Below, one piece after another: positions 40,703-60,610 of a stretch of 64,000 bases of DNA. Position 1 is the stretch's first letter, and each line of letters begins with the position of its first letter. The position numbers and the translations under genes are program-made. The notes below the pieces were generated by a model. The model did not search any database and was not told the origin of the DNA. It saw nothing but the letters and a program-made list of their open reading frames with translations. Source of the stretch: Alphaproteobacteria bacterium (GTDB taxonomy: Bacteria; Pseudomonadota; Alphaproteobacteria; Rhizobiales; GCA-2746425); assembly GCA_024743215.1 (NCBI GenBank), contig JANSWZ010000001.1, positions 1,054,001 to 1,118,000 of the forward strand, read 5' to 3'.

Positions 40703-40728
40703 AATGCATCAAAATGCGCTTGAATGCG
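40703..40728 (+). promoter_or_regulatory. Three AATGC direct repeats at exact 10-bp period upstream of tupB
   Basis: AATGC begins at 40703, 40713 and 40723, so the copies lie on one face of the helix, the last one 22 bases before tupB. The first two also include GCAT-CAAA-ATGC as an inverted pair. They are a candidate operator for the convergent HTH/molybdate-binding-like regulator at the end of the tup operon. Confidence 0.5.
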
Positions 40729-40744
40729 TATTTGGGAGAGGAAA

Positions 40745-42215: not shown

Positions 42216-43037
42216 ATGAACAGGTATTTTTGTCATCTCACCGGGCTTTGCCTTCTGGCACAGACTGCTTTGTTGGGATCAGCCTTGGCTGAGGATTTCA
42301 TCATCGTTCAATCGACCACATCGACCCAGAATTCCGGGCTCTATGATGCGCTTTTGCCCGAGTTTAAAGAAATGTCCGGGATTGAAGTTCGTGTTGTCGC
42401 GGTTGGCACAGGACAGGCCATCAAGAACGCAACAAATTGCGATGGTGATGTGCTTCTGGTTCATGCCAAATCATCGGAGGAAAAATTCGTTGCTGATGGA
42501 TACGGCCTGACCCGATCCGACGTCATGTATAATGATTTCGTGATTGTGGGTCCTGCTTCTGACCCTGCTGGCATTGCCGGCCGCAATGATATTGCCTTGG
42601 CCCTGCAAAAGATCGCTGAAACCAAAGCTGCTTTTGCGTCACGCGGTGATGACAGTGGCACCCATAAGAAAGAACTCAGCCTTTGGAACAGTGCCGGAAT
42701 TGACGGGCCTGCGGCCAGTGGAAGCTGGTATCGCGAAACCGGCTCCGGCATGGGTGCCACGCTGAATGTCGGTATTGGTATGGATGCTTATGTGATGACA
42801 GATCGCGCCACATGGATCGCATTTGGCAACAAAGGAAACCACACAATAGTTGTGGAAGGTGATCCGGCCATGTTCAATCAATATGGAATTGTGGATATCA
42901 GCCCGGATCGCTGCCCGAATGTGAAGACCGATTTGGCAGATCAGTTTATCGACTGGATTCTATCATCAAATGGCCAGGATGCCATTGCCGCCTACCAGCG
43001 CGATGGGCAACAATTGTTCTTTCCGAATGCCAAATAG
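42216..43037 (+). CDS. tupA: Tungstate-binding periplasmic protein
   Basis: A 273-residue binding protein with a signal peptide ending near ALAEDF. The TupA anion-site motif TTSTQNSGL is at residues 34-42, followed by LLPEFKEMSGIEVRVVAVGTG, GDVLLVHAKSSEEKFV, RGDDSGTHKKE and WYRETGSGMGATLN. These are the hallmarks of the TupA/WtpA-like tungstate family rather than ModA. The C-terminal WILSSNGQDAIAAYQRDG segment is echoed in the cytochrome c protein at 57.2-58.0 kb. Confidence 0.94.
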   Translation: MNRYFCHLTGLCLLAQTALLGSALAEDFIIVQSTTSTQNSGLYDALLPEFKEMSGIEVRVVAVGTGQAIKNATNCDGDVLLVHAKSSEEKFVADGYGLTRSDVMYNDFVIVGPASDPAGIAGRNDIALALQKIAETKAAFASRGDDSGTHKKELSLWNSAGIDGPAASGSWYRETGSGMGATLNVGIGMDAYVMTDRATWIAFGNKGNHTIVVEGDPAMFNQYGIVDISPDRCPNVKTDLADQFIDWILSSNGQDAIAAYQRDGQQLFFPNAK

Positions 43038-44133: not shown

Positions 44134-45495
44134 CTATTCAGCCCCGACCTGACCATTTTGGCTGTTTGAATTAGCGTCCGAAGCATCCAGATCAGTCGCT
44201 CTTTTCAGATACTCTACCAGATCAATGCGGTCCTGCGCATCGGTAATTCTTTGCATCGGCATTTTAGAGCCCGGGGTCAATTCATCAGGCCCTACATCAA
44301 ATAATGCATTGATGGTGTCGTCATTCCAAACGAGGTCATTGCCAGTCAGCGCTGAGGAATAATTGTACCCTTCCACGGTTCCGGCCAAGCGACCGAACAC
44401 GCCGCCAAGCGGCGGACCGGCCTGCCTGTTCACCGCAGCACCCAAGCTATGGCAGATGGAACATTTGCGTACGAATTGCCGCTCGCCGTTTTCCATTTCA
44501 TTCGGCGGGCGATGGAACGGCTGCTGGTCCGCACCTTGCGCCGCGACACGTCCCTCTTCCGGCCAGATCGTGACAGCTTCATCCAGCCCACCGGACAGGA
44601 GGCGTCCATCATGTGTGTAGGCCAAGGCCCAGACCGGTCCCGATTTTGCAGCCCGAAAATCACGGGCGATGGACCAGTCAGTGGTATCAAGGACCATTAT
44701 GTAGCCGTCACCGTCACCAACAGAAAGTCGACTTGCGTCAGCATTGAGAGCCAGCGACAAGATGGGGCGGCGTTCAAGTGTCACGTCAGCGATCACGTCA
44801 CCATTGTTGACATCGATGACCCTTGTACCACCATCCAGGCTTCCATAGGCCAGCCATCCCTCGCCGTCATTGACCACGAGCCGGTTTACGCCGAAGCCAT
44901 GATTGACCTCAACCCGTTCTGGACTGCCATCTGCCACATTCCAGCTTCTGATCGTTCCGTCCATCGAAGCGGAATACAAAAGCGTGCCGTCCTTGCTGAA
45001 AGCAACATCATTCACACCGCTCTTGTGGCCTGTCAGCCATGCGCGCAACGCACCGGTGTTCGCATCCCACAGGCCGATTCGGCTGTCCCAGCTTGCGGAT
45101 GCAATAAGCGTGGTATCCGCTGACACGGTTACGGACATGATTTTTGCCGTATGACCTTCAAGCCGCTGCAGCATTTTTGCAGATGGCAGGTCCCAAAGGA
45201 TCAGCGTAAAGTCATCGCCTCCAGACACGGCACGATCATTTCCCAGAAATGCAACGCTGTTAACTGCGGCCTTGTGGCCTTCCAGCCATGTCGGTTCGCT
45301 ATCAGTCCAATGACCAACCGAGTAATCGAAGCTGGCGCTGAGCTTTTCGTTCGTGTCTTTTGCTGCAGCCACACCCATGACCGGACCGCCATGGCCGCTG
45401 AGACGTTCAAACCCGTCATTTGCCACGGCCAAGCTTGCGGTTAGCAGGTAACCGGCTGCGGCCAAGGCTTGCACCTTATTGGCTGACAGCCTCAT
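44134..45495 (-). CDS. Periplasmic WD40-repeat cytochrome c
   Basis: A 453-residue secreted protein: signal peptide (about 1-25), then six or seven WD40 repeats forming a probable beta-propeller (SGGDDFTLILWD, SASWDSRIGLWD, SASMDGTIRSWN, SGGLDEAVTIWP), then a class I cytochrome c domain with heme motif CSICH (345-349) and axial Met in SKMPM (Met 412). It begins two bases after the FDH gamma stop. It may dock FDH to a periplasmic electron acceptor, with the propeller as binding platform; that role is inferred. Confidence 0.88.
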   Translation of the reverse strand: MRLSANKVQALAAAGYLLTASLAVANDGFERLSGHGGPVMGVAAAKDTNEKLSASFDYSVGHWTDSEPTWLEGHKAAVNSVAFLGNDRAVSGGDDFTLILWDLPSAKMLQRLEGHTAKIMSVTVSADTTLIASASWDSRIGLWDANTGALRAWLTGHKSGVNDVAFSKDGTLLYSASMDGTIRSWNVADGSPERVEVNHGFGVNRLVVNDGEGWLAYGSLDGGTRVIDVNNGDVIADVTLERRPILSLALNADASRLSVGDGDGYIMVLDTTDWSIARDFRAAKSGPVWALAYTHDGRLLSGGLDEAVTIWPEEGRVAAQGADQQPFHRPPNEMENGERQFVRKCSICHSLGAAVNRQAGPPLGGVFGRLAGTVEGYNYSSALTGNDLVWNDDTINALFDVGPDELTPGSKMPMQRITDAQDRIDLVEYLKRATDLDASDANSNSQNGQVGAE

Positions 45496-45497
45496 GA

Positions 45498-46805
45498 CTA
45501 TTCAGCGGGCTGCGCTGTTCGAGCCGGGTCGTCCGGTTTTGTGGACTTGGGATTTTTTTTCGCCTCTTCCGCTTCCACCTTTTCAACCCACAGATTGTGG
45601 TGTTCCTTGGCCCAGTTCTTATCCACCTTGCCGGAGCCCATGGCAGCGAAAGCGCCCTGCATGCCGACCGAACCAATATAGATATGGGCAAGAATGATCA
45701 CCGTCATCGCGAAGGCAATAATTGTGTGCCAGAGTTGGGCGTATTGCATCTCCTCATGAAGCTGCAACTCGGTGGGAAGGCTGGTCTCCAGCCCTATCAG
45801 GGGCGCAAGTTCATTGATCTTTGCAAATGTCGCCGCAAACATCGGGAATTCAAAGGGAAACAGCAGTGATATGCCAGAGGCAGACACAGATGCGCCGAGT
45901 AGAATAACACTCCAGAAAATGATCTTCTGTCCAGCATTGAACTTTTTGGAAGGCGGATGAACACCTTTTACGAAAATGCCACCGCCTTTCAGCAACCAGA
46001 TGAGGTCGTGCCGGTTGGGAATATTCTGGAAGACCCACTGGAAGAAAACCAGGATCAACCCGGCGATAAAGGCCCAGGCTACATTGTTGTGCACCCATTT
46101 ACCGGCGCTGGCGATTTGCGAATAAAGCTCCGCTCCGAACCATTCTATCAATACGATTCTGCCGAACAACAGCCATAACCCGGTCAAGGCCAGTAGAATG
46201 AAAGAAATGGCCAGCAACCAGTGTCCAAACCGCTCTATCCCGGAAAAGCGCTGCATTAGGACGCCCGACAAGCCATGTTCAATCCGGATGCGCCCACGCA
46301 GAAGATAGAACAGAGCAAGCAACACGATCGTGCCTCCTAGCGCATAAGCACCGTAGGTGGCTAAGGGTCCTTCCCGCCATTCAAGCCAACGCATGCCGCC
46401 ATCCTGAATGAGGATGCGGTCTACAGGTTTACCGGTTGAGACCGTCACGTCACCGGTCCCAAATCTCAATTGTCGATAGATGTCTGAGTCAGAGGCAGCC
46501 CCTCTAACTCCCAGTTGTGAAGAAATGGCATCAGCATTCGCGGCGGCGCCGGTTTGGGAACGACGAAACGCGTCATCAACAGGCTCTCCGCGCTGACGGC
46601 GCAGAATGTCTTCAAGTGTCTGAGCGCCCCCTGTGCTGGACCGGGCGTCTTGAGGATCGACAGTTTCTGATTGATCAATTGCTGCATCACCGTCCTGAGC
46701 AAATCCGGAACCGGCCACCAGCATAAATCCGATGACCAGAAGGACAGCGAGTGCCAGACTTTGTGAAGTCGCCCTTACCACTTTTGCCAATTCTGATGCG
46801 AACAT
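45498..46805 (-). CDS. Formate dehydrogenase gamma subunit (cytochrome b556)
   Basis: A 435-residue protein. A signal or anchor helix (LALAVLLVIGFMLVAGSGFA) is followed by about 110 residues of periplasmic extension, then the FdnI/FdoI-like cytochrome b core with four to five helices, including FGHWLLAISFILLALTGLWLL, WAFIAGLILVFFQWVF and LWHTIIAFAMTVIILAHIYIG, whose histidines are heme-b ligand candidates. It is about twice the length of E. coli FdnI because of the N-terminal extension. It anchors the FDH complex and accepts its electrons. Confidence 0.9.
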   Translation of the reverse strand: MFASELAKVVRATSQSLALAVLLVIGFMLVAGSGFAQDGDAAIDQSETVDPQDARSSTGGAQTLEDILRRQRGEPVDDAFRRSQTGAAANADAISSQLGVRGAASDSDIYRQLRFGTGDVTVSTGKPVDRILIQDGGMRWLEWREGPLATYGAYALGGTIVLLALFYLLRGRIRIEHGLSGVLMQRFSGIERFGHWLLAISFILLALTGLWLLFGRIVLIEWFGAELYSQIASAGKWVHNNVAWAFIAGLILVFFQWVFQNIPNRHDLIWLLKGGGIFVKGVHPPSKKFNAGQKIIFWSVILLGASVSASGISLLFPFEFPMFAATFAKINELAPLIGLETSLPTELQLHEEMQYAQLWHTIIAFAMTVIILAHIYIGSVGMQGAFAAMGSGKVDKNWAKEHHNLWVEKVEAEEAKKNPKSTKPDDPARTAQPAE

Positions 46806-46897
46806 GATGGCTTTGTCCTTCTAAACGGATGCTTGTAAATTTCAAAAAAACACGCCCCAAAGCACAGATAATAATCTCAGTGTCAGAGCAGACGAAA

Positions 46898-46920
46898 ACG
46901 GGCCGCATCTAGCGGCCCGT
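46898..46920 (-). other. Perfect 9-bp hairpin between FDH beta and gamma genes (attenuator-like)
   Basis: On the minus strand ACGGGCCGC-TAGAT-GCGGCCCGT is followed by TTTTCG. It lies in the 185-bp gap between the beta stop and gamma start, within one operon. The short T-run makes partial termination or mRNA-end protection plausible, giving less gamma than alpha/beta transcript. Confidence 0.65.
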
Positions 46921-46990
46921 CTCCAATAATTGCCAAGGTCAATGATCTGCTGATCTGAGACCGGCTGATCGGAAGTCGGGCAAACTGTGT

Positions 46991-47599
46991 TCAGTTGCCC
47001 TTCTGGCCGTATGCTGTACCCCAACCCCAGGCGCCGGAGCCGAAGCCGCGGGCTACAACGCGCTCGCGGTAAATCGCGGATACGTCATCGCCATCACCTG
47101 CAAGCAATGCCTTGGTTGAGCACATTTCCGCACAGATAGGCAATTTGCCTTCTGCAATACGGTTACGGCCGTATTTCTGGAACTCGACCGTGGAATGGGT
47201 CTCTTCCGGGCCACCTGCGCAGAATGTACATTTGTCCATTTTGCCACGGGAGCCGAAATTGCCAGCTTGCGGAAATTGCGGCGCGCCAAACGGACACGCA
47301 TAGAAGCAATAACCACACCCGATGCACAGATCTTTTGAGTGCAGCACGACGCCATCTTCTGTCTGGTAGAAACAATCAACCGGGCAGACAGCCATACATG
47401 GTGCATCAGAGCAATGCATACAGGCGACGGAGATCGACCGTTCGCCGGGGCTACCATCATTAATGGTCACCACACGACGGCGGTTGATGCCCCAAGGCAC
47501 CTCATGCTCGTTTTTGCAGGCGGTGACGCAGGCGTTGCATTCAATGCAGCGTTCCGCGTCGCAAAGGAATTTGGCTCTAGCCTGTCCTCCAAGTGCCAT
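46991..47599 (-). CDS. fdh3B: Formate dehydrogenase beta subunit (4Fe-4S, FDH3 type)
   Basis: A 202-residue iron-sulphur electron-transfer subunit with cysteine groups CIECNACVTACKNEHEVPWG, CMHCSDAPCMAVCP, CIGCGYCFYACPFG and CTFC, enough for four [4Fe-4S] clusters. It is shorter than E. coli FdnH and lacks its C-terminal membrane helix, as in the FDH3-type beta subunits. It passes electrons from alpha to the cytochrome b subunit and starts 13 bases after the alpha stop. Confidence 0.93.
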   Translation of the reverse strand: MALGGQARAKFLCDAERCIECNACVTACKNEHEVPWGINRRRVVTINDGSPGERSISVACMHCSDAPCMAVCPVDCFYQTEDGVVLHSKDLCIGCGYCFYACPFGAPQFPQAGNFGSRGKMDKCTFCAGGPEETHSTVEFQKYGRNRIAEGKLPICAEMCSTKALLAGDGDDVSAIYRERVVARGFGSGAWGWGTAYGQKGN

Positions 47600-47612
47600 A
47601 TTCTATTCTCCC

Positions 47613-50504
47613 CTATGCCGACCAGATCTTACAGAGCGTTGCCTTGGTCTCTTGCATTTGAGTGACCGAGTCATAGCCGTAAGTCTGAGCTGTGTTTGTG
47701 GATTCGCCGAGCACATAAGGATCAGCGCCTTTTGGGTATTTGCTTCGTTGGTCTTCTCCCTGGAAATGACCGCCAAAGTGGAACGGCATGAACGCAACCC
47801 CGGAGCCAACGCGCTCCGTAACCATCGCCATGACTTTCACCTTGCCGCCTTCAGGGCCTTCGACCCAGACCTGTTTGCCATCCCTGATACCGAGATCATT
47901 GGCATCACGCGGGTTAATTTCAACAAACATGTCCTGCTGCAATTCAGCCAACCAGGGGTTGGACCTGCTTTCATCACCACCGCCTTCATATTCAACCAAT
48001 CGACCAGAGGTCAGAATGATCGGATAATCTTTCGAGAAGTCCTGCTTCTGGATCGACGCATAGAGTGTCGGCAGACGATAGAACTTGCGATCCTCATAGG
48101 TTGGGTAGTCTTCAACCAGATCACGACGATTTGTGTAAAGCGGCTCACGATGAACCGGCACTGGATCCGGGAAGGTCCAGACTACAGCACGGGCCTTGGC
48201 ATTCCCGAATGGCGCACATTCGTGCTTGATCGCCACGCGCTGAATACCGCCGGACAAATCGGTTTTCCAATTTGTCTTGTCTCCGGCAACCGCTTCAATG
48301 GCAGCACTCTCTTCTGCGGTGAGATCACCATCCCAGCCGAGTTCTTTGAGCATCGCCATGGTAAATTCGGGATAACCATCCTGAATCTCGGAATCCAGCG
48401 AGTAAACGCCTTCTGCCAACAAATTGTCCCCATCACGTTCAACACCAAAGCGTGCCCGGAAAGTCAGGCCGCCCTCGCTGACGCGCTTGGACATATCGTA
48501 CAGATTTGGCGTTCCGGGATGGCCCATTTCCGCAGTGCCCCAACAAGGCCAGGGCAATCCGTAATAGTCACCATCAGCCGGGCCACCAACCGCTTGCAAC
48601 GTTGTGCGATGGAAGGTGTGCTGATTGGCCATGTGAAGCTTGATACGCTCTGGAGACTGGCCAGTATAACCAACTGTCCACATGCCACGGTTAAACTCGC
48701 GTGTGACATCTTCAACAACAGGCTCATCACCTTCCAGGGCAATGTTCCGGAAGAAGCGATCAGCCCAACCAAACTTCTTGGCAAATTTCGCGATGATCGT
48801 GTGATCCGGCAGGCTTTCATAAAGCGGATCAACCACTTTGTCGCGCCATTGGATCGACCGGTTTGAAGCGGTGACAGAGCCACGTGTTTCAAACTGGGTA
48901 CAGGCTGGCAGCAGATAGACACCATCCTTGCGGTCAGACAAAACAGCTGAAACTGTCGGATATGGATCGACCACGACCAGCATGTCGAGTTTTTCCATGG
49001 CCGTTTTCATTTCGACCATACGGGTCTGAGAGTTGGGCGCGTGGCCCCACAGAACCATCGCCCGGACATTTGTGTCCTGATCCATGTTGTCGACATCTTC
49101 AAGTACACCGTCAATCCAGCGAGAGACCGGTATGCCGGTTGATGTCATCAGGTTCTTGTCTTTGCCATCGGCGCCCTTGACGGTTGCGAACTGGCCTTTG
49201 ATCCAATCCACATCTTCGCCCCAGACACGAGCCCAGTGAGCCCAGGACCCGGCAGCAAGACCATAATAGCCCGGCAATGTATGTGATAGAACACCAAGAT
49301 CCGTTGCACCTTGAACGTTGTCATGGCCGCGGAAAATATTGGTACCACCACCGGATGTGCCCATATTACCCAGCGCCAATTGCAGAATGCAGTAGGCTCG
49401 GGTGTTATTGTTACCATTGGTGTGCTGAGTGCCACCCATACACCAGATGACGGTTCCAGGACGGTTGTTGACAAGTGTTCTGGCAACCCGGCGCATTTGC
49501 GATCCGGGAACACCTGTTACCCGCTCAACTTCTTCCGGCGTCCAATTGGCCACTTCTTCCTTGATCTGGTCCATACCCCAGACACGCGTGCGGATGAATT
49601 CCTTGTCTTCCCAGCCATTTTCAAAAATGTGCCACAGAAGACCCCACACCAGACCAATGTCGGAACCTGGACGGAAGCGAACATACTCATCGGCATGCGC
49701 TGCGGTGCGCGTGAAGCGCGGGTCGCAGACGATCAAAGGCGCGTTGTTCTGTTCTTTGGCACGCAAGACATGCAGCAATGAAACAGGATGCGCTTCTGCG
49801 GGATTGCCGCCGATAATGAAGATCGCTTTGGAGTTATGAATATCATTGTAGCTATTGGTCATCGCACCATAGCCCCAGGTGTTTGCAACACCGGCAACTG
49901 TGGTCGAGTGACAGATACGCGCCTGATGATCCACGTTATTGGTGCCCCAATAACCAGCAAATTTGCGGAACAGATAGGCCTGTTCATTGCTGTGCTTGGC
50001 TGAACCCAGCCAATACACAGAATCAGGACCGCTTTCCTCGCGCATTTTCATCATGCCGTCGCCAATCTCATTGATGGCGTCGTCCCAACTCAAACGGGTC
50101 CACTCGCCATTAACGAGCTTCATGGGATATTTCAGGCGGCGTTCGCCATGCGCGTGTTCGCGCACTGCCGCGCCTTTTGCACAATGGGCGCCCAGATTGA
50201 ATGGGCTGTCCCAGCCAGGCTCCTGCCCGACCCACACACCATTATCGACCTCGGCAACCACGGTGCAACCGACCGAACAGTGTGTACAAACTGATTTGAT
50301 GTTTTTGACATTACCGCTGGCCGCGCCTTGGGCTTCCGCCTTGCGCACTGTACCGCCAGTTGCTGTCAACGCTGCCAGTCCGCCAATAGCCAGACCGGAT
50401 CCACGCAAAAATCCACGCCGATCAACTGAAGTTGATGCCGCACGGGAAAGGACCGACTCGTCACGGGAGCGTCGCGCAATCCCGTTCGTCTTTTTCCTAA
50501 GCAT
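47613..50504 (-). CDS. fdh3A: Formate dehydrogenase alpha subunit (Mo/W-bis-MGD, Cys form)
   Basis: About 963 residues from MLRKKTNGIA, which has GGAGGA upstream. A Tat signal contains VDRRGFLRGSG (Arg 29-30). Cys73, Cys76, Cys80 and Cys108 bind the proximal [4Fe-4S] cluster. The metal ligand is Cys198 in ARICHSTT, where E. coli FdnG has selenocysteine, so no SECIS is needed. NPAEAHPV and the C-terminal molybdopterin dinucleotide-binding domain are present. Periplasmic formate oxidation with tungsten or molybdenum; linkage to tupBCA favours tungsten. Confidence 0.95.
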   Translation of the reverse strand: MLRKKTNGIARRSRDESVLSRAASTSVDRRGFLRGSGLAIGGLAALTATGGTVRKAEAQGAASGNVKNIKSVCTHCSVGCTVVAEVDNGVWVGQEPGWDSPFNLGAHCAKGAAVREHAHGERRLKYPMKLVNGEWTRLSWDDAINEIGDGMMKMREESGPDSVYWLGSAKHSNEQAYLFRKFAGYWGTNNVDHQARICHSTTVAGVANTWGYGAMTNSYNDIHNSKAIFIIGGNPAEAHPVSLLHVLRAKEQNNAPLIVCDPRFTRTAAHADEYVRFRPGSDIGLVWGLLWHIFENGWEDKEFIRTRVWGMDQIKEEVANWTPEEVERVTGVPGSQMRRVARTLVNNRPGTVIWCMGGTQHTNGNNNTRAYCILQLALGNMGTSGGGTNIFRGHDNVQGATDLGVLSHTLPGYYGLAAGSWAHWARVWGEDVDWIKGQFATVKGADGKDKNLMTSTGIPVSRWIDGVLEDVDNMDQDTNVRAMVLWGHAPNSQTRMVEMKTAMEKLDMLVVVDPYPTVSAVLSDRKDGVYLLPACTQFETRGSVTASNRSIQWRDKVVDPLYESLPDHTIIAKFAKKFGWADRFFRNIALEGDEPVVEDVTREFNRGMWTVGYTGQSPERIKLHMANQHTFHRTTLQAVGGPADGDYYGLPWPCWGTAEMGHPGTPNLYDMSKRVSEGGLTFRARFGVERDGDNLLAEGVYSLDSEIQDGYPEFTMAMLKELGWDGDLTAEESAAIEAVAGDKTNWKTDLSGGIQRVAIKHECAPFGNAKARAVVWTFPDPVPVHREPLYTNRRDLVEDYPTYEDRKFYRLPTLYASIQKQDFSKDYPIILTSGRLVEYEGGGDESRSNPWLAELQQDMFVEINPRDANDLGIRDGKQVWVEGPEGGKVKVMAMVTERVGSGVAFMPFHFGGHFQGEDQRSKYPKGADPYVLGESTNTAQTYGYDSVTQMQETKATLCKIWSA

Positions 50505-50632
50505 AGGTTTTCCTCCAAATAGGCCTTGAGGCCCGGTTTCTTTATTGGTCCTTGACGAACCAACTGGGTCCAATCATGAAGGGTCTGGGCGTCACGCAAC
50601 CGTCCCCTGGATATGATTTTCCCCCACTTTGG

Positions 50633-50818
50633 TTAGAAGCGTGCCGAATCCAGATATTTCTGCACATGCTCCGTCTTGCGCAAACCTTCACCTGTTATTG
50701 GTTCAGCTGCTTCCGCTTCAGTGCCGCCTGTAATCACTGCCACTGCAGCAACTGGCGCACCAGCTCCTGCAAGCTTCAGAAAATCCCGCCGACTTGCGGT
50801 TGTGGCTTTTTCGCTCAT
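50633..50818 (-). CDS. Formate dehydrogenase-region Tat-target peptide
   Basis: A 61-residue protein with AAGGAG just before the ATG. SRRDFLKLAGAGAPVAAVAV is a Tat-like signal (Arg 10-11), leaving a small mature tail ending YLDSARF. This matches the small Tat-target family found beside formate dehydrogenase alpha genes. Its role is not known; it may assist export or assembly of the alpha-beta complex. It lies between the chaperone and alpha genes. Confidence 0.85.
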   Translation of the reverse strand: MSEKATTASRRDFLKLAGAGAPVAAVAVITGGTEAEAAEPITGEGLRKTEHVQKYLDSARF

Positions 50819-50864
50819 TTCCTCTCCTTTTCCGACCGCTTTTGCGGCCCGTCGTTTGAAGGGC

Positions 50865-51476
50865 TCAGCCTTCCATCCGAAATCCGTTTTGTTCAATACT
50901 CGTGAAAGCCCGGCCAATCGTACCAATTGGCGCATAGAGTACTGAGGTCTCAGCGGATTCCAGATCCTTGAAGAACAACTCTGCCCATGGGGCCAGATGC
51001 GCTTCGAAGAATTCTCTTTGTTCTGATATGGTTGCAGGCGCGCCAAAGCGGCCGCGAATGAGGCCAGACATCATCTCACATACAGATGCTATGTTGTCTT
51101 CCGGCTCGTAGACATTTTCCTCACGCTCGATGCCAAGGCGCGCCATATCGGCGCGCAGTTTGGCCAGCGGTTTTTCGTTCAGAAAGCCTGTCAGGTAATA
51201 ACTGCCGTGGGGTAACAATTCGCCTCGACCCAATCCGATGAACAGCGCATTGAACTCGCTATGTGCGTCTCTCGGGTCAACAGCATCAGCCAAACGCGCC
51301 AAGGCTGCTATGCCGCGACCAATTTCGCTGTCATCACCTTCAAGCTTGGCGGATTGTGTGAGAAGAATTCCAGAAGGTGGGCGAGCCAGAAACGCACTCA
51401 GAAAGTCATACATATCCGCCCGAAGTAAATCTTCAGGACTGACATTATCCAACTTGGCTGCATGATCTGTTGGCAT
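50865..51476 (-). CDS. TorD/DmsD-family molybdoenzyme chaperone
   Basis: About 203 residues, all helical. LLRADMYDFLSAFLARPP, EFNALFIGLGRGELLPHGSYYLTGFLNEKPLA, EPEDNIASVCEMMSGLI and FFEAHLAPWAELFF are typical TorD-family stretches. Such proteins bind the Tat signal of their enzyme until cofactor loading is complete; here the target should be FDH alpha. It is the first gene after a recognisable promoter, so it begins the torD-tat-fdhABC transcript. Confidence 0.88.
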   Translation of the reverse strand: MPTDHAAKLDNVSPEDLLRADMYDFLSAFLARPPSGILLTQSAKLEGDDSEIGRGIAALARLADAVDPRDAHSEFNALFIGLGRGELLPHGSYYLTGFLNEKPLAKLRADMARLGIEREENVYEPEDNIASVCEMMSGLIRGRFGAPATISEQREFFEAHLAPWAELFFKDLESAETSVLYAPIGTIGRAFTSIEQNGFRMEG

Positions 51477-51515
51477 ACCCCTCCCCGAGCACGTCAAACG
51501 TTACATTCAAAACAC

Positions 51516-51545
51516 AGAATAACACCGGTCTGGATTTCTGTCCAA
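51516..51545 (-). promoter_or_regulatory. Candidate sigma-70 promoter of the FDH operon
   Basis: On the minus strand TTGGAC (51545-51540) and TATTCT (51521-51516) are 18 bases apart, 40 bases before the chaperone start. Directly upstream are the TGCGACAT repeats. Confidence 0.5.
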
Positions 51546-51554
51546 CAAATGTGT

Positions 51555-51575
51555 TGCGACATAATGGTGCGACAT
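51555..51575. promoter_or_regulatory. Two TGCGACAT direct repeats at 13-bp spacing upstream of the FDH promoter
   Basis: TGCGACAT occurs at 51555-51562 and 51568-51575, separated by AATGG, immediately upstream of the candidate -35 box, the usual place for an activator. The core CGACAT recurs in the inverted repeat between the DUF3305 and ferredoxin genes. Confidence 0.5.
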
Positions 51576-51649
51576 TTTTGACATGAGATGCGTCTGATAT
51601 CTGCAAGCTGCGGTTGCGCCCGCCCAAAGGATCAGCCTTACTCGAGGCG

Positions 51650-52366
51650 TCATCCTTCAAAATTGAACCGCATGCGATTCAAAGGTCTGACCGGGGTCAG
51701 CAGTTCCTCGGCATCCAACTCCGCATGTTCCAAATCCGAGTTTGCAGAGCCGGTCAGTGGCTCTTCATGCGAGGACTCGCCTACACTGGGTTTGATACTT
51801 TGCTCTTCGTCTTCGGGCTCGATGTTGTCATCAGCCTCTGTTTCCGAATGGGTTTCTGCCTCAGCCTCAAGCCTCTCGGATACTTCCGATTCGTCGCTGC
51901 CTGCCAATTCCTCAATCTTGCGAACAATCCCCTTGCCGACCTGGTAAGCTGTCTTCATGTCGGGCATCACAGTGGCCGCATCGGTGAAATCATCTCCATA
52001 GTCGACCAGCCTATCCACATTCGCCAGCACCGGGTTACTGAGCCAAAGCTTTCTGAGAGCGAGGTTTCTAATTCGTGCAGGAATTGCGGATTTCATAAAG
52101 ACGGTGAAATCGTCGCCCTGCTTGAGAGTGTCAGGATCCGGCAGATCAAAATGGTCCAATAATTGCTCGTCGCTGAGCAAATCCATTTCTTCTGCAGTAA
52201 GCTGTGTTGACGCATCATCTGCTAAATCTTGCGGATCTTCGGTCTGCAACGGTTCCCGGTTGGCCGTGTCCTTCCGCTTTGCCTCGACCTTTCGCTGAGA
52301 CCATCTGGACAGAAAATCCCGTTGGCCGGGCGCAGTATCAGCTGAATATTTGTCATCAGCACTCAA
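51650..52366 (-). CDS. DUF3306 protein
   Basis: A 238-residue, strongly acidic, probably cytosolic protein without membrane helix. The N-terminal FLSRWSQRKVEAK and the core LTAEEMDLLSDEQLLDHFDLPDPDTLKQGDDFTVFMKSAIPARIRNLALRKLW-type region (residues about 60-110) match the DUF3306 family; the rest is low-complexity Glu/Asp/Ser. It overlaps the DUF3305 stop by ATGA. DUF3305/3306 pairs occur with FDH loci; a role in assembly is inferred. Confidence 0.8.
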   Translation of the reverse strand: MSADDKYSADTAPGQRDFLSRWSQRKVEAKRKDTANREPLQTEDPQDLADDASTQLTAEEMDLLSDEQLLDHFDLPDPDTLKQGDDFTVFMKSAIPARIRNLALRKLWLSNPVLANVDRLVDYGDDFTDAATVMPDMKTAYQVGKGIVRKIEELAGSDESEVSERLEAEAETHSETEADDNIEPEDEEQSIKPSVGESSHEEPLTGSANSDLEHAELDAEELLTPVRPLNRMRFNFEG

Positions 52367-52956
52367 TGCAGCGTTTCCTTTGGTTTGTCCGGATCCGATC
52401 GCGTCGGTTTGGTCTGTGATGGTGTGCGATAGACATCTGCCGTCTGGCGGATTCTGGGATCACCAATACCGTCCTCTTTCAAATCTTCAAAATATCTGCG
52501 GCGTTTGCGCTTTTTGAATTGTTCTTCTTCGAAATGAACATCGGTAAATGAACGAACCCAGGCAACCAGCCCCTCAGGCATTGGCACAGGTTCGACAATT
52601 TCTTCGCCACTATCCTGATAGTCCTGGGCCTCATAGGCCGATGCTGTGGCGGTATGAACCGCATAGTCATGTGGTGATTGCGGATCATCATCATGGCGCA
52701 GAACGACAAATACAGTCGGCGGCTCCATGGTGAGCGATACCTTGTAAGCCTCGGCATCAGCCCGATGCAGGTCAAGTGGGACGGTAGCCGCATGGAATTC
52801 CACCACATCTCCGTCTCGTCTCAGTTCTGCCCAATCAGCCGGACCTGCTCCTGGCAAAACGGCGACCACGCGCCAGACATGTTTGGCCCACCGGGTCACA
52901 CCAGGTTGTCGGCGGATCACGATGCCCAGCGGCATTGTAATCTTGCTTGTCTCCAT
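52363..52956 (-). CDS. DUF3305 protein
   Basis: About 197 residues starting METSKITMPLG after GGGAGGGG. The core has VIRRQPGVTRWAKHVWRVVAVL, DLHRADAEAYKVSL and FVVLRHDDDP, matching DUF3305, and the C-terminus has a KKRKRRRYFEDLK basic stretch. It is translationally coupled to DUF3306 and divergent from the ferredoxin-like gene. No enzyme motif is visible; probably an accessory factor of the FDH system. Confidence 0.8.
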   Translation of the reverse strand: METSKITMPLGIVIRRQPGVTRWAKHVWRVVAVLPGAGPADWAELRRDGDVVEFHAATVPLDLHRADAEAYKVSLTMEPPTVFVVLRHDDDPQSPHDYAVHTATASAYEAQDYQDSGEEIVEPVPMPEGLVAWVRSFTDVHFEEEQFKKRKRRRYFEDLKEDGIGDPRIRQTADVYRTPSQTKPTRSDPDKPKETLH

Positions 52957-52982
52957 GAACCCCTCCCAAAAGGACACTTGTC

Positions 52983-53104: not shown

Positions 53105-55096
53105 ATGCCGGATACAAAACGACTGCTTGTCTGCGATTGCGCTGGGTCCATGGCACTTAATCCGGAAATTCTGGGGAAAGCGGCCGGCGTTGAAGGTGTA
53201 ACTGCGTGCAGTTTTTTGTGCACGGACCAGGTTCAGGTGGCCACCGATGCCCTGTCAGAGGGCGGCGATGTAACAATTGCCTGCCGCCAAGAGGCTGATT
53301 TCTTTGAAGACCTTGCCGAAGAGCTTGGTGCAAGCGAGCGTTTGCAGACAGTTGATATTCGCGATCGTGCAGGCTGGACAAACGACGAAAATGCCGTTCC
53401 AAAACAGGCCGCGCTGCTTGCAGAAGTAGCACTCCCACGCCCGCAGACACCATCCAGGGATGTGACATCAGGAGGGGTTTGTTTGATTCTCGGCGCTGAT
53501 GAGACAGCTCTGACTGCGGCTAAACGTCTCTCTGATGTGTTGGCCGTTACCTGCCTGATGACAGAAGCACCGGACTTTGTGCGTCCGATCAACAGCTATG
53601 ATCTTGCGATGGGAAACATCTCAAAGGCCAGCGGAACAATTGGCAGGTTTGAGGTGACTGTTGATCAGTACGCTCCCATGCAACGCACCGGGCGCGGCCA
53701 TCCAGGGTTTCTAGCGGCGAAAGACGGTGCCCGTTCACAGTGCGATATAATACTCGATATCAGAGGCCAAACTCCGCTGTTTCCTGCGCCGGAAAAGCGC
53801 GATGGCTATTTCCATGCTGATCCAAAAGACAAGCTGGGTGTTGAACGCGCAATTTTCGACGCGTCGCAAATGGTGGGTACGTTTGAAAAGCCTCTGTACA
53901 TTCGTTTCGACCCGTCGATCTGCGCCCATTCGCGGGCACAGCAAACCGGTTGTAGCAAGTGTCTGAACATCTGCCCGACAGGGGCCATTACTCCCGCAGG
54001 AGATGTGGTCTCCATAGACGAGAATATCTGTGCCGGTTGCGGCGCCTGTGCAGCTGTCTGCCCATCTGGTGCTGCCAGCTATGATGACCCTTCGGTTGAC
54101 TACCTGTTCCGCCGTTTGCGTGTCCTTTCACAGACATTTCGAGATTCTGGCGGGGTATCGCCCAGAGTTCTGTTCCATGACGAGGAACATGGCGGAGAAA
54201 TGATCCGCCTCTCTGCGCGTTTTGGGCGTGGTTTACCGGCAGATGTTATTCCAGTCGATGTTTCCAATGTCGAGGGCGTGGGCCATGCCGAGCTGATTGC
54301 GGCTATGGGCGTCGGTTTCACCGAAGCGCTGATACTGATCGGGCCGAAAACGGATCTGACTGCGCCAGAAACAGAAATTGAAATCGCGCGTGCAATTCTT
54401 GAAGGCGGTGGCCACAATCCGGAGTTGGTGCGCCTGTTGCGCCCTCAGGCACCGGATGATCTGGAAGCCATTTTGTATGATCGTCCGATTGAGCCCATCA
54501 AGGTGGAACCTATCCTGCCTCTTGGCAGCCGCCGCGATGTGACCCGGCTTGCATCGGCAACTCTGTCGCCAGCAGTCGAAGCGCCCATCGAATTGCCACA
54601 AGGTGCGCCCTATGGTGCCATTGTAATTGACAAAGACCTTTGCACGCTTTGCCTGTCCTGCATTTCTTTGTGTCCAGTGGGTGCTCTGACAGATCATGCT
54701 GATCGTCCGGCGGTGAATTTTCAGGAAAGCGCCTGCCTTCAATGTGGCATCTGCAAAAGCACATGTCCGGAAAGCGCGATTTCTCTGATGCCGCAACTGA
54801 ATCTTTCCAAGCAAGCTATCATTCCGCAAATGCTGCATGAGGAAGAGCCGTTCGAATGCATCGAATGCAGCAAGCCCTTTGGCGTTAAAAGCACAATCAA
54901 CAAGGTGGTTGAGAAGCTTGAAGGCAAGCACTGGATGTATACAAATTCCGACAATTCCAAACTTATTCAGATGTGTGATGACTGCCGCGTGAGAGCGCAA
55001 TATCATGGCGAAAACTCACCTTTCCAGGCTGGCGAGCGACCTACAATCCGCACAACCGATGATTATCTGACCGGTAAACTGGACGATACGGAATAA
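53105..55096 (+). CDS. Large multi-cluster 4Fe-4S ferredoxin-like protein of the FDH locus
   Basis: A 663-residue cytosolic protein. The N-terminal third has CDCAGSM and a CRQE segment; two ferredoxin motifs, CSKCLNICPTG and CAGCGACAAVCPSG, lie near 283-320; two more, CTLCLSCISLCPVG and CLQCGICKSTCPES, near 515-560. A C-terminal CIECSKPFG with CDDC looks like a zinc ribbon. No signal peptide. It may carry electrons or build Fe-S or bis-MGD centres for FDH. It precedes the phosphatase-like gene by 12 bases. Confidence 0.88.
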   Translation: MPDTKRLLVCDCAGSMALNPEILGKAAGVEGVTACSFLCTDQVQVATDALSEGGDVTIACRQEADFFEDLAEELGASERLQTVDIRDRAGWTNDENAVPKQAALLAEVALPRPQTPSRDVTSGGVCLILGADETALTAAKRLSDVLAVTCLMTEAPDFVRPINSYDLAMGNISKASGTIGRFEVTVDQYAPMQRTGRGHPGFLAAKDGARSQCDIILDIRGQTPLFPAPEKRDGYFHADPKDKLGVERAIFDASQMVGTFEKPLYIRFDPSICAHSRAQQTGCSKCLNICPTGAITPAGDVVSIDENICAGCGACAAVCPSGAASYDDPSVDYLFRRLRVLSQTFRDSGGVSPRVLFHDEEHGGEMIRLSARFGRGLPADVIPVDVSNVEGVGHAELIAAMGVGFTEALILIGPKTDLTAPETEIEIARAILEGGGHNPELVRLLRPQAPDDLEAILYDRPIEPIKVEPILPLGSRRDVTRLASATLSPAVEAPIELPQGAPYGAIVIDKDLCTLCLSCISLCPVGALTDHADRPAVNFQESACLQCGICKSTCPESAISLMPQLNLSKQAIIPQMLHEEEPFECIECSKPFGVKSTINKVVEKLEGKHWMYTNSDNSKLIQMCDDCRVRAQYHGENSPFQAGERPTIRTTDDYLTGKLDDTE

Positions 55097-57187: not shown

Positions 57188-57973
57188 TTATCGGGCTTCA
57201 ACAGTGCCCCCCAAATCTTTCGTAGGCATTTTTGCAACGAATGAGGCGATTGCTTCAACATCCTCGATTGTCATGACGAGAGGCGCGATAGGGGACGGAC
57301 GCGCCGGGTCAAACGGTTCGGTGATACCTTCAATCTGGGTAAAAGCAGGATGCGGATTGATGGTCCAGAATGCGGCAAAGCTTTCAGGCCAGTCAGGGAG
57401 CGTTTTCAGCGCCCCAAAAGACGGCGTTGACCCGATACCACCAAAGGGATTGCGGTTGTCGACGACATGACATCGACCACAATGCAACAAGGCCAGTTTT
57501 GAACCAAGATTTGCATCGCCTTCAATTTCAACTTTTACTTCTTCGACAATCTTTTTCGCACCGGGCGTGAACAATTGACTGCCGTCTGGTTTGAAACTTT
57601 CAATCGCCGCGCGCCCAGGACCGCTTTGCAGCCAGTCCAGCAATTTGGCGATTTTTTCCTGGAGGGCCGGATCGGGAGAGATTGGTGCCAGAAAATACGG
57701 CACGCCATCTGCCGAACTCATGACCGCAACACCATCTGCAGCTTCAGGCAGCAGGCTTGCTGCACCAAGCTCCCCTTCCACAACCGCTTCAACCCGAATA
57801 CGGGTCTTGAAGCGAAACCGCGGAAACAAGTGTTGTGTGAGCCCACTTTCAATGAGGTGATCCGGGACAATCAGTCGCAGATCAGCTTCCTGTGCATCCG
57901 CAATGGGCAGCTTTAGCCCCAATACAGCTATCGCGGATATCAAAAGACTTCCTATCAGATGTTTGACAGGCAT
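57188..57973 (-). CDS. Cytochrome c with a shortened TupA-like N-terminal domain
   Basis: A 261-residue secreted protein. After a signal peptide (about 1-27), residues 30-145 resemble the two ends of TupA joined with the middle missing: ESGLTQHLFPRFRFKTRIRV against NSGLYDALLPEFKEMSGIEV, and ISPD then DWLQSGPGRAAIESFKPDG against ISPD then DWILSSNGQDAIAAYQRDG. The tungstate-site TTST is lost. A cytochrome c domain follows, with heme motif CGRCH (165-169) and a possible Met ligand at 234. It may have a structural or electron-transfer role with FDH. Confidence 0.8.
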   Translation of the reverse strand: MPVKHLIGSLLISAIAVLGLKLPIADAQEADLRLIVPDHLIESGLTQHLFPRFRFKTRIRVEAVVEGELGAASLLPEAADGVAVMSSADGVPYFLAPISPDPALQEKIAKLLDWLQSGPGRAAIESFKPDGSQLFTPGAKKIVEEVKVEIEGDANLGSKLALLHCGRCHVVDNRNPFGGIGSTPSFGALKTLPDWPESFAAFWTINPHPAFTQIEGITEPFDPARPSPIAPLVMTIEDVEAIASFVAKMPTKDLGGTVEAR

Positions 57974-58093: not shown

Positions 58094-58306
58094 ATGGACA
58101 ACGAAGCCTTCAATATGTCCCTTCGCAAATTTCTGAAGAAGGTCGGCGTGACCTCTCAGCAGGAAATAGAGGAAGCAGTACGTGCCGCCAGAGACGCTGG
58201 CTCACTTGGGGACGGACCATTGAGAGCCCGCATGGTTCTGACGCTTGATGGCGTCGAGCTTGAGCATGTGGTCGAAGGTGACATCGCGCTGATGGATACT
58301 CAATGA
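58094..58306 (+). CDS. DUF6494 small protein
   Basis: A 70-residue cytosolic protein, MDNEAFNMSLRKFLKKVG onward, with AGGGAG upstream. It matches the small DUF6494 family by its N-terminal helix and TLDGVELEHVVEGDIAL tail. Its stop overlaps the Mrp start (ATGA), making it the leader of a four-gene operon linked to FDH loci. Function unknown. Confidence 0.8.
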   Translation: MDNEAFNMSLRKFLKKVGVTSQQEIEEAVRAARDAGSLGDGPLRARMVLTLDGVELEHVVEGDIALMDTQ

Positions 58307-59412
58307 GCGAACCAACTCTTGAGGCAGTCCGGGCCGCTCTTTCCAAAATTATTGACCCGGCGCAGGGAAAAGACATCATCTCCACAGGCCAAGTGCAGGG
58401 GTTGGGTGTTAACGGCGAACGCGTCAGCTTCATTCTGGAAGTGGATCCCAACCGTGGGTCTGCCATGGAACCCTTGCGCAAGGCCGCGGAGGAAGCTGTA
58501 AAATCCGTTCCAGGTATTGTTGCAGTGAATGTAGTGATGACCGCACACTCAGGTGAAGGTCAGGCAAAACCGGCAGCGGCTGCCCCAAAAGGCGCGCCCC
58601 CCGGTTTTCCGATCAAAGCGCCCAAGCCATTGGAAGGCGCGTCAAAACGGGTGCCCGGTGTTGACCGGATCATCGCTGTTGCATCTGGCAAGGGCGGTGT
58701 CGGGAAATCAACCGTCTCGTCCAATCTGGCTGTGGCTCTGGCGGCACAGGGCAAGCGGGTCGGCCTGCTGGATGCTGATGTTTACGGGCCCAGCCAGCCA
58801 CGCATGCTGGGCGTTTCAGGACGACCGTCAAGTCCTGATGGTCATATCATCCTGCCGCTGCGCAACCACGGCGTTACGCTGATGTCGATTGGCCTGATGA
58901 CCGGTGAAGATGAAGCCGTTGTCTGGCGTGGTCCCATGCTGATGGGTGCCTTGCAACAGATGCTGACACAGGTGCAATGGGGCCGTCTCGACGTGCTTCT
59001 GGTCGATTTGCCGCCCGGCACCGGTGATGTGCAGATGACTCTGTGCCAAAAGGCTGAGGTCGATGGTGTCGTTATTGTCTCGACGCCTCAGGATATTGCA
59101 CTGATTGACGCCCGTAAGGGCATCGATATGTTCCAGAAAATGGACACACCCATTCTGGGCATTATCGAAAACATGTCGTCTTTTATCTGCTCAACCTGCC
59201 AGACCGTGCATCATCCATTCGGTCATGGCGGCGCAAAGGCAGAAGCCGAAAAGCTGGGTGTTCCTTTTCTCGGCGAGATTCCGTTAGATTTGGATATCCG
59301 CATTGCCAGCGATGGCGGCGCGCCTATTGTGGCAGCCAAGCCGGACAGTCCGCAGACAAAGGCTTTTTGGGATGTTGCTGAGAATTTGATGAAATCGGAT
59401 GCAATGACATGA
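58303..59412 (+). CDS. apbC: Mrp/ApbC-family Fe-S cluster carrier ATPase
   Basis: A 369-residue P-loop ATPase. An N-terminal MIP18-like domain (about 1-85) is followed by a Pro/Ala linker and the deviant Walker A VASGKGGVGKST, LLVDLPPGTGD and the C-terminal CSTC motif that binds the transient cluster. It delivers [4Fe-4S] clusters to apo-proteins. Here it is overlapped on both sides by FDH-associated unknown genes, so a dedicated role for the FDH or ferredoxin-like protein is likely, though housekeeping use is possible. Confidence 0.92.
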   Translation: MSEPTLEAVRAALSKIIDPAQGKDIISTGQVQGLGVNGERVSFILEVDPNRGSAMEPLRKAAEEAVKSVPGIVAVNVVMTAHSGEGQAKPAAAAPKGAPPGFPIKAPKPLEGASKRVPGVDRIIAVASGKGGVGKSTVSSNLAVALAAQGKRVGLLDADVYGPSQPRMLGVSGRPSSPDGHIILPLRNHGVTLMSIGLMTGEDEAVVWRGPMLMGALQQMLTQVQWGRLDVLLVDLPPGTGDVQMTLCQKAEVDGVVIVSTPQDIALIDARKGIDMFQKMDTPILGIIENMSSFICSTCQTVHHPFGHGGAKAEAEKLGVPFLGEIPLDLDIRIASDGGAPIVAAKPDSPQTKAFWDVAENLMKSDAMT

Positions 59413-60137
59413 TCCTTGGCCAACCTGACCCGGAGGTGCCGCAATTCCCGCCCATGTTCCGTGGTGAACCGTTGCGCGCAAATCTTGATCCTTTTTCCAA
59501 GGCGATTTCTTCGGCTATGCGCGGTATTGATCCGGGATTGATCGTTTGGTCGGAAGACAAAAACACAGCAAAAGCTGCTCTGGTTCTGGCACCTGAAGAG
59601 CCTTTGGAAACTGCCATTGGAGCGGTGTTTGCAGCCTTTCTGGGCCTGAGCGACAGTCTTGGTGCCCTCGCACCACCTGAAGTTGCCGTTCATTTTCAAT
59701 GGCCTAATCGGATCAAGGTCAATGGTGGACTATGCGGCCGCATAAAAATTGCCGCTGATACCACCATCCCCGATCAGGAGCCCAATTGGATTGTCATTGG
59801 CCTTGAACTGCCGCTTTTGCCCGATCATGAATATGAGCCTGGCGATAGCCCGAATGAAACCACTTTGGTCGAGGAAGGTTGTGGCGAAATTACCCGCACT
59901 CAGTTGATTGAGGGCTGGTCACGTCACACCCTGGTCTGGATAAACCGATATGTGGATGATGGATTTGCGCCGTTGCATGCGGCCTGGCGCAGCAAGTGCG
60001 ATTCACTCGGCGAGCCGATCGAACTGCCGCGTAAAGGCGTGTTCATGGGCCTTGATGAGCTGGGCGGCATGCTTTTGAAAGATGATGACGGGACCCATAT
60101 CATTCCCCTCACCCAACAGTTGGAGGCGACCGCGTGA
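59409..60137 (+). CDS. Biotin/lipoate-ligase-like protein (DUF4444 type)
   Basis: A 242-residue protein resembling the biotin/lipoate A/B ligase superfamily: VVW-like VWSEDKNTAKAALVLAPEEP, HFQWPNRIKVNGGLCGRIKIA and WIVIGLELPL in the ligase core, and a C-terminal MGLDELGGMLL region like DUF4444. The KVNGGLCGR segment corresponds to the ligase lysine motif. It overlaps both neighbours. Which acyl or cofactor group it transfers, if any, is unknown. Confidence 0.78.
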   Translation: MILGQPDPEVPQFPPMFRGEPLRANLDPFSKAISSAMRGIDPGLIVWSEDKNTAKAALVLAPEEPLETAIGAVFAAFLGLSDSLGALAPPEVAVHFQWPNRIKVNGGLCGRIKIAADTTIPDQEPNWIVIGLELPLLPDHEYEPGDSPNETTLVEEGCGEITRTQLIEGWSRHTLVWINRYVDDGFAPLHAAWRSKCDSLGEPIELPRKGVFMGLDELGGMLLKDDDGTHIIPLTQQLEATA

Positions 60138-60610
60138 AACTGGCCCGAACAATTCGTTTCGATGATTCAGACCTGAATGTCTTTGAAAACACGGCAGAAC
60201 TGGATGAGTGGGCGCTTTCAGGCGCATTCGAATTTTCCAATTGGACCGAAGCAGATTTGACCGGCAAGGGACGCCAGGCTTTCGCAAATGGCTGGATGGG
60301 TCTTGAGAGCTTTGGACGGTCAACCTTTGTGGCCGTTACGGCCATCAGTGAGCGCGAATATGACGACCTGATCGACAGGCTATCGGTCCATTTCGTTCAG
60401 CGCTATGGCGCACCCAGTCTTGAAGCTGCGCGCGGTCCCGCAGTTGAAGAAATCGAACACATGCGCCAGATGTGCGAAGATCATGAAGACAACACCTTGC
60501 TGATTGTCGAACGTGAACTTGTTGAAAGCGGCGTTAAAGAAAGCTTTCGTGTTCTCAAACCGCAAGATGCGGATTTGGCGCAGTTTGCGGTCCATGGAGA
60601 TATGGAATAG
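60134..60610 (+). CDS. DUF6505 protein
   Basis: A 158-residue cytosolic protein starting at GTG within the stop of the ligase-like gene. KLARTIRFDDSDLNVFENTAELDEWALSGAF and GRQAFANGWMGLESFGRSTFVAV match DUF6505; the C-terminal half is acidic with EEIEHMRQMCEDHEDN. It ends the DUF6494-apbC-ligase operon at a long stem-loop. Function unknown. Confidence 0.8.
   Translation: MKLARTIRFDDSDLNVFENTAELDEWALSGAFEFSNWTEADLTGKGRQAFANGWMGLESFGRSTFVAVTAISEREYDDLIDRLSVHFVQRYGAPSLEAARGPAVEEIEHMRQMCEDHEDNTLLIVERELVESGVKESFRVLKPQDADLAQFAVHGDME

Follow-up and report, generated by a model that had tools for sequence, protein, structure and literature searches.

TupA, the tungstate-binding component of the TupABC transporter, for which structures are available (5my5 and 3lr1), is the closest described relative of one half of the protein studied here. 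According to the description of 5my5 (PMC5517513), lobe A is made of residues A2-R76 and Y201-E251, a central strand runs from T77 to P89, and lobe B comprises A91-Q200. The TTTS motif belongs to lobe A and lies opposite R118, T124 and D170, three residues of lobe B that are proposed oxyanion ligands. Another system to be considered is lanthanide-dependent methanol oxidation, in which, as reported in PMC7391723, the loss of XoxG or XoxJ is like the loss of XoxF. The literature covered, which includes few subscription papers, yielded no description of a TupA lobe fused to a cytochrome c, and the parts available of PMC6147048 (on domain fusions of molybdoproteins), PMC13197769 and PMC4464133 do not mention such a fusion.

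Domain layout and the TupA-like half of the protein

The gene occupies positions 57188..57973 of the window (the whole stretch of DNA analysed, 64,000 nucleotides) on the minus strand, as do all features of the fusion given below. It starts with ATG, is single-copy (one match in a search of the whole genome) and encodes a 261-residue exported TupA-lobe/cytochrome c fusion. Residues 1-28 (57890..57973, ending in ADAQ) are a likely signal peptide, judged by hydropathy only from a hydrophobic stretch at about residues 6-20. An N-domain of about 115 residues (approximately 29-146) lies between this signal and a class I-like monohaem cytochrome c domain (residues 150-250; 57224..57526) delineated by Pfam and PDB profile matches. 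Within the N-domain, a first piece (residues 30-72; 57758..57886) matches TupA residues 27-70 and is devoid of the TTST motif, and a second piece (residues 93-140; 57554..57697) matches TupA residues 223-273. The protein has both a CxxCH motif and an export signal, as c-type cytochromes do, and we place it in the periplasm for this reason. It appears to be a secreted, soluble, monohaem c-type cytochrome whose N-terminal half would come from a lobe of TupA. An intact TupA, a relative of the N-domain, is encoded in the same window (42216..43037, plus strand), together with TupB (40724-41452) and TupC (41439-42194).

An earlier, sequence-only reading of this DNA had aligned the N-terminal half with both ends of this TupA, and BLASTP, hhalign and a PDB profile search all bear this out. 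In a single BLASTP comparison, fusion residues 93-140 matched residues 223-273 of the window TupA with 41% identity (E 5e-9), and residues 5-67 matched residues 7-64 with an E value of 0.003, which is weak alone and includes the signal peptide. Using hhalign profiles of 52 distinct fusion homologues and 47 TupA sequences, with each end tested apart, residues 30-73 matched TupA 27-70 with a probability of 96.4 and a score of 52.1 (at most 19.9 in 200 column shuffles), and residues 104-139 matched TupA 237-272 with a probability of 98.4 and a score of 67.4 (at most 18.9 in 200 shuffles). Both pieces match the correct end of TupA and their order is preserved. When aligned in one piece, the C-terminal stretch alone was matched, because the fusion lacks the roughly 150 residues that lie between the two pieces in TupA. 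In a blind search with a profile of 23 of the 52 available N-domains against 177,635 PDB sequences, the first five entries were 3muq (E 3.4e-6), 5my5 (4.8e-5), 3cvg (2.2e-4), 3lr1 (2.6e-4) and 3kn3 (0.035). Both ends of the N-domain align, in order, with 3muq and 5my5, and the first piece is matched by 3lr1 as well. Chance resemblance was rejected on the basis of this search and of the shuffles, none of which (0/200 for each piece) reached the score obtained.

Against the genome of the window itself, the N-domain profile found the fusion first (E 5e-33), tupA second (E 3e-6) and a weak third match (E 0.17). A general likeness to substrate-binding proteins, not specific to TupA, was rejected as the two other binding-protein-type proteins of the window, the only two tried, gave no match (probabilities 0.2 and 0.9). 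A scan of the fusion alone against NCBIfam returned TupA as sole match (E 0.17, 11 bits versus a curated cut-off of 400). Out of 18,950 models, this one was matched by 8 of the 11 alignment members at E<=1 (best 0.006), and five others were matched by one member each. The N-domain is thus homologous in sequence, over lobe A, to TupA and hence to type 2 periplasmic binding proteins. At this level the comparisons show that it descends from lobe A of TupA, the fold of which it presumably shares.

Structure prediction was of low confidence. AlphaFold gave a mean pLDDT of 34.3 for the full-length protein with a two-row alignment, and of 63.5 (pTM 0.59) for the N-domain with a four-row alignment, the other four models reaching 40-52. 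In our reading, the order of strands and helices in this N-domain model would be that expected of lobe A. A fold comparison, which had been named beforehand as the test that could refute the kinship, gave no Foldseek match at E<=0.001 for this low-confidence model, and its best 50 of 398 matches (top probability 0.11) comprised no substrate-binding protein. The likeness to TupA could then be convergent or accidental and the N-domain an unrelated small domain, with which the modest values of the single stretches matched in the PDB (9e-4 for 3muq, 5e-4 for 3cvg, 0.011 for 5my5) would also agree. We find this hardly credible, given that two independent segments match in order, that the five entries heading the blind search are the same five TupA relatives found by the window TupA, and that a single fusion sequence used as query retrieves TupA-like C-termini (22 rows, two confirmed on tupA genes).

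The BLAST match of the fusion to TupA begins exactly at Y93. This residue corresponds to Y223 of the window TupA, itself aligned with Y201 of 5my5 (chain residue 224, if a 23-residue tag is allowed for), i.e. the published start of the second lobe A segment. The N-domain can therefore be read as a trimmed lobe A. The central part of TupA had been described as missing and the TTST motif as lost, and this applies to the whole family: the N-domain measures 105-118 residues in 52/52 homologues, with no counterpart of the approximately 150 residues holding lobe B, and the TT(S/T)(S/T) motif is found in none of the 52 versus 33 of the 47 TupA rows. The attachment of a cytochrome c to this collapsed domain, also proposed, proved to be an architecture conserved across the family. 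The two lobes with a cleft that characterise type 2 binding proteins are not found in the N-domain. As lobe B and the TTST motif are lost, the metal site would be lost too, and from its sequence the fusion cannot be expected to trap tungstate. That it acts as a tungstate-binding protein was rejected, since both elements are missing and TupA is kept elsewhere in the genomes (in 41 of 42 tested, 36 of them fusion carriers, the miss being a 75%-complete genome). Two other positions are worth comparing: R52 is invariant in the fusions (52/52) and no residue reaches 10/47 at this position in TupA, and K56 is also invariant, a lysine being common there in TupA as well (18/47).

The haem domain and its stand-alone relatives

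In the haem attachment motif C165-G-R-C168-H169 (57467..57481), C165, C168 and H169 are invariant in 96/96 cytochrome domains. The Pfam Cytochrom_C model scores 15.5 bits in the fusion itself, below the gathering score of 21.3, and is matched by 11/11 alignment members at E<=1 (best 2e-4). The top solved match of the domain is cytochrome c2 (E 0.027). However, the Met sixth ligand near the C-terminal helix typical of class I cytochromes c was not found. No Met is invariant, and in 52/96 domains the segment from His208 onwards contains none. The position opposite the Met ligand of cytochrome c2, as placed by a weak alignment to 2c2c, is A230, which is variable and a Met in 2/96 domains; residue 234 is a Met in 24/96. 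A Met is also present 8 residues after the CxxCH His in 50/96 domains, but we do not think that it can be a ligand. His208 (57350..57352), invariant in 96/96 domains, is the candidate sixth ligand because it is the only invariant His or Met besides H169. His208 would most likely be the sixth haem ligand. The haem is predicted to be bis-His or five-coordinate, and bis-His coordination via His208 would make it a low-potential haem. Weak PDB matches of the domain include cytochrome c549 (E 0.25) and PsbV (E 0.46), which are bis-His cytochromes.

Small stand-alone cytochromes form a widespread family, to which the cytochrome half belongs. The 44 stand-alone domains, from alphaproteobacterial loci, are mostly 38-47% identical to the fusion over residues 150-250 approximately, and share with it the CxxCH...GSTPSF...PHP pattern and the lack of a conserved Met. 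In contrast to the fusion, they have no TupA lobe, and in the 11 inspected the signal-peptide region directly abuts the cytochrome. The sequence-only reading had suggested that the whole protein may be a partner of formate dehydrogenase (FDH) arisen from a binding protein; such an origin stands for the N-terminal half, whereas the cytochrome half comes from this other family.

Distribution and linkage to FDH3 clusters

The large genome searches scored up to 6-9 candidates per genome, and the absences reported here are thus approximate. Among 292 genomes of the order of genome G724, 91 matches were found, spread over 39 of 112 genera. Both halves are present in 88 of them, two (G882, G999) have the cytochrome only, and one (G976) is truncated close to the end of its contig and contains a stop. 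In the window's own order, 83 of 397 genomes match at E<=1e-3, at 95 places. Eight of these places span both halves, 46 are confined to the cytochrome and cover most of it, 17 cover a smaller portion of the cytochrome, and 22 match only residues 93-152 or so, the TupA-like end; two of these 22 (G002, G022) lie on tupA genes found independently. The fusion was also found in 8/14 genomes of the order of G758, and matches in 17/385 genomes of a class-wide sample (7 with both halves) and in 10/398 of a phylum sample, all ten labelled as own, same order or same class. A scan of viral contigs gave 0 relatives. We rejected the idea that the fusion is an isolated curiosity of the window's genome in view of the 39 genera and of the wider samples. 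Five plasmid records carry it (three Sagittula, one Tateyamaria, one Sulfitobacter), annotated as 'hypothetical protein' (four) or 'c-type cytochrome' (one). On the Sulfitobacter plasmid (L010, 10179-14497), the genes for Mrp, the ligase and the 4Fe-4S protein are split into several overlapping matches, which suggests broken frames or sequencing errors.

In the window, an FDH3 cluster (44134..52977, minus strand) encodes a WD40-cytochrome c, FDH gamma, beta and alpha, a small Tat-type protein region, TorD, DUF3306 and DUF3305. The beta subunit matches NF038355 (FDH3_beta) with 347.7 bits versus a cut-off of 240, and the alpha subunit has a twin-arginine-type leader (RRGFLRGSG), from which a periplasmic location is expected. 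A 4Fe-4S protein gene (53105..55096, plus strand) flanks the fusion gene in most relatives inspected. On its other side, the genes for DUF6494 (a name taken from plasmid annotation), Mrp/NBP35, a biotin/lipoate ligase-like protein and DUF6505 (58100..60610, plus strand) are divergent from it. The typical order in the family is DUF6505, ligase, Mrp and DUF6494 in one direction, the fusion in the other, and then the 4Fe-4S protein, DUF3305, DUF3306, TorD, FDH alpha, beta, gamma and WD40-cytochrome.

Other genes of the window can be mentioned here. The gene joining a WD40 beta-propeller to a cytochrome c (44134-45495, minus strand), beside FDH gamma, recurs at this position in several FDH3 loci, both those that have the fusion and those that do not. 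Next to tupA, the product of 43047-43925 (minus strand) combines an excisionase-type helix-turn-helix with a domain resembling the tail of PRK14498, a molybdopterin biosynthesis protein, and looks like an oxyanion-sensing regulator; relatives lie beside tup or FDH3 genes in five loci (L122, L179, L188, L189, L191). An acetate kinase-like gene (55728-56894, minus strand) is located between the fusion and 4Fe-4S genes here and in the near relatives L001 and L106; the remaining fusion contexts inspected showed no such gene.

In the order of G724, FDH3, as detected with NF038355, is present in 90/91 fusion-matched versus 56/201 unmatched genomes (Fisher p 1e-34, a statistic that ignores phylogeny). 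Of the 91 matches, 85 share the strand of fdh3B and lie 7.8-9.4 kb upstream of it, and five are far from this gene or on another contig, two of these being cytochrome-only and three fusions (G854, G824, G894; 3/88). Outside this order, FDH3 was found in 15 of 16 fusion genomes (the miss being G1068) and in 0 of 4 non-carriers tested. The connection with FDH made by the sequence-only reading holds as far as gene linkage is concerned; a partner role in function would go one step further. We also compared 29 fusion and 35 stand-alone contexts, chosen from the best matches and not at random. Mrp or DUF6494 neighbours the fusion in 28/29, the exception (L100) being a contig that ends 1.1 kb further on. 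Two contexts from the window's genus (L107, L108) have no FDH3 gene beside the fusion within the stretch examined.

The fusion is not present in every FDH3 locus, as a core subunit would be: 56 of the 146 FDH3 genomes of the order of G724 have no match. In 16 FDH3 loci from unmatched genomes it was absent from all 16, and 12 of these are otherwise collinear with an empty slot, the 4Fe-4S gene directly adjoining DUF6494/Mrp. The fusion can therefore be regarded as an insertable accessory. Of the remaining four loci, one is cut (L183) and three (L184, L185, L189) have another gene order. The latter represent a second, rearranged FDH3 cluster type of this order, with Mrp beside FDH gamma and no fusion in the stretch. 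By gene linkage, we have shown that the fusion is a conserved optional accessory of the FDH3 cluster and not a core subunit. Neither the fusion nor its lobe is essential, because of these 56 genomes and because G491 has, at the usual FDH3 position, the cytochrome alone without the TupA lobe.

The neighbours of the fusion gene are maturation-type genes (Mrp/NBP35, biotin/lipoate-ligase-like, 4Fe-4S protein, then DUF3305/3306 and TorD) and not structural subunits. This could mean that the cytochrome aids FDH3 assembly or protection, through a redox step, the delivery of haem or clusters, or protection from oxygen, and has no part in turnover. We consider this unlikely, as the products of these neighbours are presumably cytoplasmic but the signal peptide and CxxCH of the fusion imply the periplasm, and as the 12 collinear fusion-less loci keep the same neighbours. 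The tupBCA genes offer another explanation. They are found in the examined stretch of 9/29 fusion contexts (L086, L088, L090, L091, L093, L095, L096, L009, L010), and in 5/35 stand-alone contexts the cytochrome gene is co-oriented with tupBCA and lies 51-980 bp upstream of it. In binding-protein transporters, both lobes touch the permease, and a single lobe could therefore keep this surface. The fusion could then be a haem-based regulator of tungstate uptake, docking by its lobe on the TupB permease, the redox or ligand state of the haem gating delivery by TupA to match the need of FDH3. However, tupBCA is also beside FDH3 in 6 of the 16 loci without the fusion (L177, L180, L182, L187, L188, L190), and a regulatory role of this kind seems to us quite doubtful.

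Origin, constraint and proposed role

In a tree of the 96 cytochrome domains (102 columns, many open forks), a branch with 97/97 support separates the 52 fusions and three stand-alone proteins (G491, G882, G999) from 41 stand-alone domains. As the three sit among the fusions, just 2% of bootstrap trees have the fusions on a side of their own. Lobe loss explains this most simply, though other readings exist: three label changes between fusion and stand-alone are needed, most simply one gain and two losses of the lobe. The 35 stand-alone contexts include tupA in 9 and FDH3-cluster genes in 15. Since some of the stand-alone cytochrome genes (5/35) are neighbours of tupBCA, an origin by fusion of neighbouring genes is plausible. 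Independently of any fusion, the five loci with a cytochrome upstream of tupBCA (L157, L158, L159, L168, L171) point to a possible tie of the stand-alone family to tungsten uptake.

The table of dN/dS values comprises 235 pairs, most of them saturated, and only close pairs were used. In four of these, the N-domain gave 0.13 (L002/L003), 0.14 (L009/L052), 0.26 (L036/L058) and 0.06 (L037/L075), and the cytochrome 0.03-0.09, below the lobe in all four. The lobe may thus matter less than the haem domain. Pairs from the order of G758 run higher, with 0.18-0.55 for the lobe and 0.06-0.40 for the cytochrome. The faster divergence of the lobe, together with the G491 cytochrome that does without it, would be in line with the N-domain being a relic, i.e. 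a TupA signal peptide and TupA ends carried along by accident beside a cytochrome that alone is functional. Such a relic is improbable: G44, P51, R52, F53, K56, W114 and G120 are invariant in 52/52 homologues, the dN/dS of the lobe is well below 1 in close pairs, and both halves are kept in 88/91 matched genomes of one order. To judge from these substitution patterns, constraint acts on the lobe but is stronger on the haem domain.

We propose, with a probability of about 0.55, that the protein is a periplasmic accessory cytochrome of FDH3 that reuses a TupA lobe for docking, with a haem that is probably bis-His via His208. Haem would be bound at C165, C168 and H169, with His208 as the sixth ligand of a low-potential bis-His haem. 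The TupA lobe, without its partner lobe, would not trap tungstate and would still present its surface. The retained lobe could serve as a docking module holding the haem domain on FDH3 or on its membrane or cytochrome subunits, and the docked haem might pass on electrons from formate oxidation or keep the enzyme active. An extra electron carrier is not obviously needed, because FDH3 clusters encode a membrane cytochrome b and often the WD40-cytochrome c. A broader version, which we advance very tentatively, is that the lobe is a stable docking domain coupling the haem to FDH3 or TupB, so that tungsten supply would be tied to formate oxidation through redox, and that a single fusion event between adjacent cytochrome and tupA genes gave rise to it. 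Widespread (88/292 genomes of the order of G724) and unnamed, the fusion is part of a gene cluster for formate oxidation. A binding-protein remnant that has kept one lobe and is maintained by selection would be an uncommon way of reusing this fold. As loci with and without the fusion are otherwise collinear (12/16), simply removing the gene from cultured Roseobacter-group strains would be a way to probe its role.

Compared with known systems, the fusion shares with TupA the first strand and helix with SGLxxxLLPxF and the C-terminal Y...DWLxSxxGxxxIxxFxxxGxxLF block. In contrast to TupA, it lacks lobe B, the central strand, the TTST/TTTS motif and residues of the R118/T124/D170 type, and has a cytochrome c after the lobe. 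With class I cytochromes c its family has the Cytochrom_C match in common, but an invariant His208 and no conserved Met ligand. In the XoxG and XoxJ pair, as described in PMC7391723, a cytochrome c and a binding-protein-type protein also assist a periplasmic dehydrogenase. However, XoxG (the cytochrome) and XoxJ (the binding-protein-like activator of methanol dehydrogenase) are separate proteins, whereas here a single chain combines one TupA lobe with the cytochrome, and the enzyme concerned is a Mo/W formate dehydrogenase. By analogy, the fusion resembles this pair in outline, which may be its nearest precedent.
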